A DNA stretch of 64,000 nucleotides from Pontibacter sp. G13 (GTDB lineage: Bacteria > Bacteroidota > Bacteroidia > J057): assembly GCF_031851795.1 (NCBI RefSeq), contig NZ_CP134696.1, positions 1,669,576-1,733,575 on the forward strand. The letters run 5' to 3'. Within the stretch, counting starts at the first letter, position 1; each line of letters begins with the position of its first letter. The position numbers were made by a program, and so were the translations under genes. The notes beneath the pieces were generated by a model. The model did no database searches. It had not been told where the DNA came from and saw nothing but the letters and a program-made list of their open reading frames with translations. This document shows positions 38,819-57,302 of the stretch, one piece after another.

Positions 38819-38875
38819 CATTTGTGGTACAGGAGGATACTCATACGTTCTAGTTCCACTGATCATTTGTGGTAC
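38819..38875 (+). promoter_or_regulatory. direct-repeat operator upstream of the GH2 gene
   Basis: CATTTGTGGTAC occurs twice, at 38819-38830 and 38864-38875 (45 bases apart, same orientation). The wider consensus A(C/T)CATTTGTGGTA matches a pair upstream of susC. The downstream copy ends 41 bases before the -7 element, a position suited to an activator such as the HTCS. Confidence 0.6.
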
Positions 38876-38916
38876 GGTTAAGCACCATCTTCCCATGTAG
38901 GATGCAGTCGATGTCC

Positions 38917-38924
38917 TAGCTTTG
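38917..38924 (+). promoter_or_regulatory. -7 element of the GH2 gene
   Basis: TAGCTTTG matches TAnnTTTG and lies 26 bases before the ATG. There is no good -33 TTG, which fits activator-dependent transcription. Confidence 0.55.
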
Positions 38925-38950
38925 GGAAGTTATCCAAAATCGAACCGTAC

Positions 38951-53904: not shown

Positions 53905-56900
53905 TTAGAATTGGATACTTGCACCCATGCGGTAGGTCCGCATTCTTGGGTAGGAATCGAAGTCCAGACCAGGAGTCAATTGGTTGTTGCCAACGCTCAC
54001 GTCAGGGTCATATCCGGTGTAGTTGGTCCAAACATGGAGGTTGTCACCCGCTACATACAGACGGCAGCCTTTCACTCCGATCCGAGTCAGGAAATTCTTC
54101 GGAAGGTTGTATGCAAACGTGATGTTGCTCAAACGCAGGTAAGATCCATCTTCGATGTAGAAGGTGTTGTTGATGTCATCAGCACCACCATCTCCAGTAC
54201 CCCAGATAGAAATGATATCTGTATCAGGATTTTCAGGTGTCCAGCGATCGCGGATGAAGCCCAACTTGTTGAAGAATGGAATGGCAGTCGCCATACCTCT
54301 TACGCGGTTGTTGTTGTAGATGTCGTTGCCGTAAGACCAGTTCATGAATACGGACAACTCGAATCCTTTGTAGGAGAAGTTGTTGGAGAATCCACCGAAG
54401 TGCTTAGGCATGGCATTACCGATGATCGTACGGTCATCTGTATCGATCACACCATCTCCGTTGAGGTCCTTGAACTTGATCACCCCTGGACGGAAACGAG
54501 AGATACCAGCGCGGAGCGGAACCCCTTCTTTGGGAGTAAAGGTCTCAGATGCACGGTCGAATCCGTCCATCAACAACGCTGCTTCTTCATTGGACAACTC
54601 GTTGAATTCTTCGAAGTCGTCGTAGTTGTAGATTCCGTCAGCTACGAATCCGTACATAGCGCCGATAGATTCACCTACACGGACAATGTAGTCGTTGCGG
54701 TTCTCACCGATCGCCGTAACGGTAAACTCCTCAGCATCACCAAGATCCAATACCTTGTTTTGGTTGAAGGAGATGTTGAAGTTGGAAGTCCACAAGAATT
54801 CCTTCTGAGAGATATTCACTGTGTAGAGAGAGAACTCCAACCCTTTGTTTTCTACCGCACCCAAGTTTTCGAAGGTAGTGGAGAAACCGGAAGTAAATGG
54901 TACAGGTACTTCCAAGAGGAGATCTGTCGTCTGCTTGTTATAGTAATCAAAGGTGAACTGAACGCGATCCTTGAACAATCCCAATTCCAAACCTACGTCC
55001 AACTGGGTAGTCGTCTCCCAAGTCAAATCAGGGTTGGCCAAACGCTCAGGCGCAAGACCCGGCTGGATGGAACCTGCATAGTATGCGTTGTTCAAGTTGT
55101 AAGAAGCCAATGAACGGTAAAGACCGATCTCTTGGTTACCACTCAAACCGTAGCTCGCACGAAGTTTCAAGTTGCTCAAAGACTTCACAGACTCGAGGAA
55201 TGGCTCGTCGCTCACACGCCACGCTACCGCAGCAGATGGGAAGAGACCGAACTTGTTGCCTTCTGCAAACTTGGAAGAACCGTCATAACGAGCAGTTGCA
55301 GTAAACAAGTAGCGATCCAACAAGGTGTAGTTCACACGACCGAGGAAGGACATCAATCCCCACTGGGTACGGGTAGAGTTGGTAGGCAACACCTCTTTGG
55401 CAGCTGCCAAGTTATCGATGTTCACACCAGGGATGTCAAAGTCGATGGAAGTGGTACGGAGGGATTCCCAAGTACCGCCCTGCTGGGTGAAACCTACTAC
55501 CGCGTTGATTCCGTGGTCGCCCAACTTCGTCTTGTAAGACAACGTGTTCTCGTTCAACCAACCTACATTTTGGTTGGTACCGACGATCGCACGTCCATTT
55601 GTAGCACGTCCCCAACCGAAGTCGCCCGGATACCAAGCTTTGCCTCGGTAGTTGGAGATATTACCCCCAAACGTAGAACGGAATACCAACCCTTTGATCG
55701 GCTGAAATTCGAGGAAGGCATTACCAAATGCCTGCATGTTGTTGTTGACGTTGGTGGTATTGTTGATCAGGACCTCTGGATTGGTCACCTCACCATCACG
55801 GTCGGCGATCAGCAGGCCATTCTCATCGTATTGAGCTTCTGGACGACGCTGTACCCCCTGCACTGGGCTAAAGAGCAATACGTTGGTCAGTACACCATTT
55901 CGGGTACGAGATTCTGCTGCTGCAGTCACGACACCGTTACGCTTGGTGTAACCCATGTTGATGTTCAATCCACTCTTGAACTTCTTGTTGATCTGCTGAT
56001 TCAACTTCATGTTTCCGTACAGACGCTGGAACCGAGACTTGTCTACGATACCGCTTTGGTCGACATAGGAGAATGAAGTGGAGTAATTGGTACGACCATT
56101 TCCGCCAGACATGGACAACTTGTAGTTCTGAACCGTGGCGTTTTTGATCACGCGATCTCTCCAATCCGTAACGGTCAATCTTGGGTCATCCAATTGGATG
56201 TCGTTCCCCAAAGAATCACGGTACATGGCGGAGTAGAGGTTTGTCGGATCATCAGGATTGTACGGGAAGTACTCGTTCCAGAAGTCTACATATTCTTGTG
56301 GAGAAAGGATATCGATGTCACGGCCAATCTCGGAAACTCCAAAGTAAGTTTCGAAGTTCACCTGAGAACGTCCTTTCTTACCACTTTTGGTAGTGATGAG
56401 GATTACCCCGTTGGCACCACGAGAACCATAGATAGCGGTTGCGGATGCGTCTTTCAATACTTCGATAGACTCGATGTCACTCGGGTCGATAGAAGCAAGT
56501 GGGCTCGTGGAAGAAGTACCCAGACCTACGTTGTCTCCTTGGCTGGAACCCAAGATCGGGAAACCATCGATGACGTACAGTGGGTCATTACTTGCATTAA
56601 TAGAGGTACCCCCACGAATACGGATCTTGGCGGATGAACCAGGACCACCTTCAGAAGAAGTTACCTGTACACCTGGCGCACGCGCCGCAAGTCCTTGCTC
56701 GAAAGAGACTGTTTGGATTTGGTTGAGTTCTTCACTGCTTACAGAAGAAACCGATCCTGTCAAGTCGCGCTTTTCGACTGCACCGTACCCAATCACGACC
56801 ACCTCGTCGAGGGTGTTCACGTTGAGTTTCATCTTGACGTTGATCACGGACTTTCCGGCAACGGGAATGGCTTGCTCCTCATAGTTGATGTAAGAGAAAA

Positions 56901-57135
56901 CCAGAACCGATTGAAGATTTGGCACCTCGATGGAGAATGCTCCATTTTCGTCGGTCAGTTTACCGGTACGTGTTCCTTCAACTACGACGGTCGCCCCGAC
57001 AAGCGGAGATTCATCGTCTTGAGAAACCACGGTTCCGGTAATGGTCTGTTGTGCCAACAGGTTTCCGGAACCAAGTACCCAGCACATCCCAAGTAACAGG
57101 AGTAGTAGGTGCCTTTTAGGTAATAGTAGCATCAT
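53905..57135 (-). CDS. susC: SusC/RagA-family TonB-dependent outer-membrane transporter
   Basis: The 1,076-residue protein has a signal peptide (about 1-28). A carboxypeptidase-D-like domain follows (about 30-105, ITGTVVSQDDESPLVGATVV), then the plug with the SusC box KRDLTGSVSSVSSEEL, IRIRGGTSINASNDPLYVIDG and ATAIYGSRGANGVILITTKSG, and a 22-strand barrel ending in an aromatic-terminated strand (RMGASIQF). It imports oligosaccharides with SusD using TonB energy. The gene opens an operon with susD and the PKD lipoprotein. Upstream lie a direct-repeat operator and a -7-like element, and the divergent zinc dehydrogenase gene. Confidence 0.96.
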   Translation of the reverse strand: MMLLLPKRHLLLLLLGMCWVLGSGNLLAQQTITGTVVSQDDESPLVGATVVVEGTRTGKLTDENGAFSIEVPNLQSVLVFSYINYEEQAIPVAGKSVINVKMKLNVNTLDEVVVIGYGAVEKRDLTGSVSSVSSEELNQIQTVSFEQGLAARAPGVQVTSSEGGPGSSAKIRIRGGTSINASNDPLYVIDGFPILGSSQGDNVGLGTSSTSPLASIDPSDIESIEVLKDASATAIYGSRGANGVILITTKSGKKGRSQVNFETYFGVSEIGRDIDILSPQEYVDFWNEYFPYNPDDPTNLYSAMYRDSLGNDIQLDDPRLTVTDWRDRVIKNATVQNYKLSMSGGNGRTNYSTSFSYVDQSGIVDKSRFQRLYGNMKLNQQINKKFKSGLNINMGYTKRNGVVTAAAESRTRNGVLTNVLLFSPVQGVQRRPEAQYDENGLLIADRDGEVTNPEVLINNTTNVNNNMQAFGNAFLEFQPIKGLVFRSTFGGNISNYRGKAWYPGDFGWGRATNGRAIVGTNQNVGWLNENTLSYKTKLGDHGINAVVGFTQQGGTWESLRTTSIDFDIPGVNIDNLAAAKEVLPTNSTRTQWGLMSFLGRVNYTLLDRYLFTATARYDGSSKFAEGNKFGLFPSAAVAWRVSDEPFLESVKSLSNLKLRASYGLSGNQEIGLYRSLASYNLNNAYYAGSIQPGLAPERLANPDLTWETTTQLDVGLELGLFKDRVQFTFDYYNKQTTDLLLEVPVPFTSGFSTTFENLGAVENKGLEFSLYTVNISQKEFLWTSNFNISFNQNKVLDLGDAEEFTVTAIGENRNDYIVRVGESIGAMYGFVADGIYNYDDFEEFNELSNEEAALLMDGFDRASETFTPKEGVPLRAGISRFRPGVIKFKDLNGDGVIDTDDRTIIGNAMPKHFGGFSNNFSYKGFELSVFMNWSYGNDIYNNNRVRGMATAIPFFNKLGFIRDRWTPENPDTDIISIWGTGDGGADDINNTFYIEDGSYLRLSNITFAYNLPKNFLTRIGVKGCRLYVAGDNLHVWTNYTGYDPDVSVGNNQLTPGLDFDSYPRMRTYRMGASIQF

Positions 57136-57205
57136 AATGCGATGTGTTTAGAAGAGGTAATAGCAATCTGAGAGAGCTGCTAAGCGCTCGTTTTAGGTAA
57201 AAGTC

Positions 57206-57302
57206 CAAGTTTATGTAGCTTCCCGGTGCCACAGATTTGTTGCATCCTAACACAAATGGTTATGGGGCCATTTCGGCTATAACATTCATAGCACAAATGG
57301 TT
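57206..57302 (-). promoter_or_regulatory. susC promoter region with direct-repeat operator
   Basis: On the minus strand ACCATTTGTGnTA occurs at about 57301-57289 and 57260-57248, 41 bases apart and in the same orientation. Thirty-odd bases further downstream is TAAACTTG (57213-57206), one mismatch from the -7 consensus. Motif, orientation and distance agree with the pair upstream of the GH2 gene. Confidence 0.6.

Follow-up and report, generated by a model that had tools for sequence, protein, structure and literature searches.

A paired 13-mer upstream of GH2 and susC genes in Pontibacter sp. G13 is probably the half-site of a clade of hybrid two-component regulators

One polysaccharide locus in Pontibacter sp. 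G13 carries the same short word twice at each of two promoters, which raises the question of which regulator reads this word and at what spacing. We analysed a window of 64,000 nucleotides (contig NZ_CP134696.1, positions 1,669,576 to 1,733,575), in which ACCATTTGTGnTA occurs four times with 0-1 mismatch, as two same-strand pairs upstream of a GH2 beta-galactosidase gene and a susC gene (Table 1). Each pair is oriented like its own gene, and the start-to-start spacing is 45 bp in the GH2 pair and 41 bp in the susC pair. The window also encodes a hybrid two-component system (HTCS) protein with an AraC-type DNA-binding domain. Comparison with related HTCS loci suggests that the sites are likely a regulatory element of a known kind, whose regulator clade is well supported, and that the usual spacing of this clade is probably 21 bp and not 41 or 45 bp.

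The original prediction had described two pairs of 13-mers, 45 and 41 bases apart, had considered such matched pairs unlikely by chance and had proposed a genome-wide scan for the paired form. Sites, strands and distances agreed within two bases, and both spacings were borne out when counted start to start. Exact ACCATTTGTGNTA is found three times in the whole 7.67-Mb genome, where base composition predicts 0.9, and all three copies lie in the GH2 and susC promoters. The paired scan gave a clearer picture, as the close-paired form of the 8-mer core, CATTTGTG-N25..40-CATTTGTG, was confined to these two promoters: two pairs genome-wide compared to 0.056 expected from base composition, and none in the reversed control. 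Looser forms are less distinctive. The word CATTTGTGNTA occurs 24 times in the genome against 14 expected (reversed control 4), and allowing up to two mismatches the window holds 11 matches, where shuffled versions average 4.3 and attain at most 11, in 1 of 100 shuffles, indicating that loose matches are only mildly enriched. The pair pattern is present in 4 of the 22 genomes of the order, the own genome being among the four. Both promoters have the makeup of an HTCS operator, a direct repeat of an asymmetric half-site. A palindromic reading, ACCA-N4-TGGT, was dropped because the susC copies break the symmetry.

The HTCS combines Reg_prop, Y_Y_Y, HisKA, HATPase_c, Response_reg and HTH_18 domains in one protein, all above their cut-offs. 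Among 395 genomes of the class, relatives at E<=1e-92 were found in the own genome and in one other, G369, which belongs to another family. The DNA-binding region of the G369 protein is 67% identical to that of the window HTCS, and both segments that we take to be the recognition helices are identical. G369 carries an exact ACCATTTGTGATA before its susC gene, as a single strong copy and in the same orientation as in the window.

We therefore turn to the wider clade, sampled by a scan of species genomes that yielded at least 80 loci with DNA-binding domains 64-78% identical. Here, the clade word is the core ACCATTTGT followed by nTA. The core occurs 76 times in 49 of the 80 loci (permuted words: mean 15.2, max 57); these counts are partly from coding sequence, including a recurring match near position 7150 inside the HTCS gene, and consequently only intergenic repeats were used afterwards. 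Of 25 intergenic pairs with up to two mismatches in both halves, 14 were spaced at 21 bp and one at 42 bp, while permuted words gave a mean of 0.9 pairs. With up to three mismatches we counted 35 repeats at 21 bp, compared to a mean of 1.41 and a maximum of 6 at the other spacings between 10 and 69 bp, and to a mean of 0.9 and a maximum of 10 for permuted words at 21 bp. Up to four mismatches raised the number to 70 (other spacings: mean 8.7, max 27; permuted words: mean 5.8). Of these 70 repeats, 41 precede a gene in the forward sense alone, 2 in the reverse sense alone, and 27 in both senses or neither. Whole-genome searches of 12 clade genomes, hand-picked from those of the 80 loci, returned 18 repeats at up to one mismatch versus 3 reversed. 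The operator is thus conserved upstream of polysaccharide genes with related regulators, before susC in G369 and, at up to four mismatches, in 45 of the 80 loci. These repeats keep a spacing of about 21 bp, from which the strong window copies depart.

A half-site matrix was built from 29 of the 35 repeats at up to three mismatches; of the six omitted, three were near-duplicates of others and three were dropped without a criterion. Its positions 1-9 are circular, because the members were selected on them. Positions 12-13 (T, A) were outside the selection and agree with the window half-sites, and position 10 is T in the matrix versus G in the window copies.

The 21-bp clade repeats together with the exact copy in G369 make it probable that regulators of this HTCS clade use the 13-mer as a half-site, and we consider it likely that the HTCS encoded in the window is the regulator of these sites. 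In our model, each 13-mer would be bound by one monomer through the AraC-type domain. The inducer would be an oligosaccharide, presumably derived from porphyran, agar or another red-algal galactan. On sensing it the HTCS would become phosphorylated, bind in front of GH2, susC and probably further pathway genes, and activate them. Because the clade uses 21 bp, we read the 41 and 45 bp of the window as two tandem dimers, each occupying one strong and one weak half-site. This is the least certain step; given HTCS binding, it may equally well be right or wrong. Possible weak partners were seen for three of the four copies, at 21 bp for susC copy 2 and at 22-23 bp around the GH2 copies, with p values (0.001-0.021) that are uncorrected for about 50 tests. 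The matrix found no weak partner for susC copy 1. susC copy 2 and its partner also appeared in a genome-wide 21-bp scan, among six matches with three mismatches, a level that the control reached as well.

Several observations weigh against this model. The spacing in the window differs from that of the clade, the weak partners 21-23 bp away are not significant after correction, and the GH2 partners would need 22-23 bp, which is no clade spacing either. With its G at position 10, the exact 13-mer has one match in the 80 loci (permuted mean 0.2) and was rejected as the clade word. At up to four mismatches 35 of the 80 loci lack a 21-bp repeat, and one permuted word reached 53 repeats. In the whole G369 genome CATTTGTGNTA is as frequent as its reversed control (4 vs 4). 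Furthermore, the core ACCATTTGT also stands beside a second HTCS gene of the own genome (L071:1291-5436), whose recognition helices are unlike those of the window HTCS. The assignment of the regulator is therefore not exclusive, and of the original proposal that the nearby HTCS acts on these sites the between-genome comparison (G369 and the 80 loci) upholds the role, not its exclusiveness.

The wide spacing could also be taken at face value. One HTCS dimer or tetramer might bridge the two distant half-sites without weak partners, so that the pair of about four helical turns, as originally proposed, is itself the operator unit. Both strong pairs are indeed near 42 bp, a pair spaced at exactly 42 bp occurs in one of the related loci (L118), and the two sulfatase promoters of the genome each contain a second core, 49 bp away in one and, as a variant, 59 bp away in the other. 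But the 80 related loci show 21-bp spacing and no peak at 41-45 bp, the distances 41, 45, 49 and 59 do not share one helical phase, and G369 has a single strong copy. The four-turn unit as originally put forward is therefore not supported, and we regard bridging as unlikely.

The other candidates come from the own genome. A scan for CATTTGT-N8..38-CATTTGT returned 10 matches against 1 in the reversed control, and six of the 10 have exactly 14 bases between the cores, corresponding to 21 bp: four belong to a single GH86 cluster, another precedes a GH16 gene and the last is within a long open reading frame (ORF). Including the TA and allowing three mismatches, the 21-bp scan gave 13 matches and the reversed control 7, a number that is not split by mismatch. 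The seven repeats with up to two mismatches precede five GH86 porphyranase genes, a tagaturonate reductase gene and the GH16 gene. All seven read against the transcription of these genes, in contrast to the window sites, which read with it. For two of the GH86 sites the called gene start is some 300 bases away. The GH16 site is upstream only on the assumption that translation begins at an internal Met ahead of the signal peptide, and the site before tagaturonate reductase has forward orientation with respect to another gene, roughly 0.6 kb off on its other side. The GH86 cluster (L071, G000:C1:2252500-2272400) consists of the second HTCS gene followed by the five porphyranase genes, each with an upstream 21-bp direct repeat of the CATTTGT core in reverse orientation; perhaps the seven reversed repeats are under this HTCS, for which no relative but itself was found in the 395 genomes (E<=1e-32). 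The neighbourhoods of 13 other HTCS genes of the genome, two of which (L192 and L197) overlap by about 9 kb, contained no 21-bp repeat at up to three mismatches and five at four. Single forward copies of CATTTGTGNTA precede genes for a GH29 protein, two sulfatases, an FkbM methyltransferase and a Big_2 protein. Another copy falls within the GH86 cluster, and of the rest the majority are inside ORFs. Three core copies with spacings of 26 and 13 are located at L073:1727-1778, in the stretch from which a gene for a membrane-anchored AraC-type protein and a gene for a protein with a 3-keto-disaccharide hydrolase domain diverge.

Binding of the window sites by another AraC-type regulator, either the HTCS of the GH86 cluster or the membrane-anchored AraC protein (L073:2212-3015), would make the window genes part of a regulon controlled from elsewhere. 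Such a regulator would be in keeping with the five 21-bp repeats of the same core adjoining the GH86-cluster HTCS and with the three cores before the membrane AraC gene, but the GH86 repeats run opposite to the window sites relative to transcription, the helices of that HTCS differ, and it is G369, with helices identical to those of the window HTCS, that has the exact word before susC. We consider this distinctly unlikely. A broader scheme strikes us as possible, if rather doubtful: a CATTTGT+nnTA code common to two HTCS with different helices, and perhaps to the membrane AraC protein, could be read in opposite orientations and at several spacings (21 reversed, 41-59 forward) and induce the loci for polymer cleavage, import and L-galactose use as one porphyran regulon. 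Finally, a chance likeness of AT-rich words at the two promoters, to which the mild enrichment of loose matches in window and genome might point, is highly improbable, as both close pairs fall in one polysaccharide locus and, in another family, susC is again preceded by the exact word next to an HTCS whose helices are the same.

The promoters themselves were inspected for the -7 consensus TAnnTTTG. The -7 elements had originally been placed 41 or about 37 bases after the downstream copies. At the GH2 promoter this was confirmed by TAGCTTTG, 42 bases after copy 2. The scan for TAnnTTTG-like sequences found no -7 element at the susC promoter, where TAAACTTG is a weak candidate at 34 instead of about 37 bases. 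The susC pair lies inside the divergent gap 57136-57365 with the Zn-dependent dehydrogenase gene on the opposite side, and could therefore serve both genes.

Table 1. Operator copies, promoter elements, possible weak half-sites and genes in the window
Feature	Position	Strand	Remarks
GH2 promoter copy 1, ACCATTTGTGGTA	38817..38829	+	exact match, 0 mismatches
GH2 promoter copy 2, ATCATTTGTGGTA	38862..38874	+	1 mismatch
susC promoter copy 1, ACCATTTGTGCTA	57289..57301	-	exact match, 0 mismatches
susC promoter copy 2, ACCATTTGTGTTA	57248..57260	-	exact match, 0 mismatches
GH2 promoter -7 element, TAGCTTTG	38917..38924	+	TAnnTTTG-like
susC promoter candidate -7 element, TAAACTTG	57206..57213	-	one mismatch
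Possible weak middle half-site, GH2 promoter	38840..38852	+	23 bp past copy 1, 22 bp before copy 2; matrix p 0.009 and 0.001, uncorrected
Possible weak half-site, GH2 promoter	38884..38896	+	22 bp past copy 2; matrix p 0.021, uncorrected
Possible weak half-site, susC promoter	57227..57239	-	exactly 21 bp past copy 2; p 0.012, uncorrected
GH2 beta-galactosidase gene	38951..42115	+	proposed target; Pfam GH2 domains
Sulfatase gene	49095..50606	-	same locus; relatives adjoin related HTCS genes
susD gene	52362..53924	-	downstream of susC
susC gene	53905..57135	-	proposed target
Zn-dependent dehydrogenase gene	57366..58382	+	transcribed away from susC; the susC pair may also act on it
HTCS gene	58418..62959	-	proposed regulator; propeller, Y_Y_Y, HisKA, HATPase, receiver, AraC-type HTH
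SDR gene	62725..63744	-	scores above L-fucose dehydrogenase cut-off

The locus runs from the GH2 beta-galactosidase over a beta-helix protein, a GH8/CBM6 protein, a sulfatase, a PKD/CBM protein, SusD, SusC and the Zn-dehydrogenase to the HTCS; our gene calls are mechanical ORF calls with uncertain starts. Beyond the window follow a tagaturonate reductase and an L-fucose:H+ symporter, both above cut-off, a galactarate/altronate dehydratase assigned by Pfam, and genes for a GH29 protein, a GH43-like protein, a sulfatase, another GH2 protein and a lactonase-like amidohydrolase. The probable red-algal galactan gene set is wider than the GH2 and susC genes first noticed. None of the dehydratase, lactonase and Zn-dehydrogenase reached an NCBIfam cut-off, so that we infer their roles. 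The neighbouring genes suggest use of a red-algal galactan and of L-galactose, and the locus may run the route from L-galactose over L-galactonate and tagaturonate to altronate that is described in the part of PMC12632266 covered here; L-fucose is a possible alternative sugar for the first steps. In 82 loci (the 80 and two G369 stretches), relatives with at least 35% identity were found for the window sulfatase in 32, for GH29 in 22, for the Zn-dehydrogenase in 19 and, in 11 loci apiece, for tagaturonate reductase, dehydratase and SDR. For GH86 there was one locus with a relative (at least 30%), for GH16 there were two. Consequently, the clade is tied more to these sulfatase and sugar-acid genes than to porphyranases.

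Just upstream of the GH2 promoter lies a 281-bp unit in 4.9 tandem copies (window 35684-37060), with an extra copy at 38340-38520 beyond an IS110-type transposase gene (37068-38039); a 181-base piece of the unit matches the genome at 92 places, many of which form tandem clusters. The locus also encodes two adjacent small proteins on the minus strand (47831-48250 and 48476-48895), both 139 aa long and sharing 52% identity across 119 aa, for which we found no Pfam match.

In the open-licence literature, judged mostly from titles and the openings of abstracts, we found no description of this motif. HTCS-type sites as such are known; what we did not find described there is this particular word, the set of genes it accompanies and the wide interval between its copies. 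Half-site, spacing rule, orientation rule and regulator clade were derived here by sequence comparison across marine Bacteroidota. Together they make target genes of the clade predictable, and what 21 bp versus the double spacing means becomes directly testable.

The following comparisons refer to the parts of each paper that were covered. Binding of HTCS proteins at loci that they regulate was found by ChIP-seq (PMC3404733; the words "motif" and "repeat" are absent from the part covered), and a gel shift placed an HTCS on susC promoters (PMC11253607). Regulons for red-algal galactans and their regulators are described in PMC5698469 and PMC5613140, with no operator in the parts covered. The carrageenan regulon of Zobellia galactanivorans (PMC5698469) resembles the present case in having a red-algal galactan, distant member genes and an AraC-family regulator, but its polymer is carrageenan and its regulator, cgrA, is called AraC family. 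SusR-like operators (PMC3878776) are likewise direct repeats with a long spacer; however, their sites are 67 or 77 bp apart and not 41 or 45 bp, and the regulator that we propose is not a SusR-like protein. The sites also resemble the HTCS operators of Bacteroides, for which comparative genomics (PMC3878776) predicted motifs for 16 of 36 HTCS regulators of Bacteroides thetaiotaomicron. The window copies, 41 and 45 bp apart, differ from these operators in spacing, organism, half-site word and gene set. Yet both are direct repeats of an asymmetric half-site before polysaccharide genes near an HTCS gene, and the average spacing of 21 bp predicted in Bacteroides is that of the clade repeats found here.

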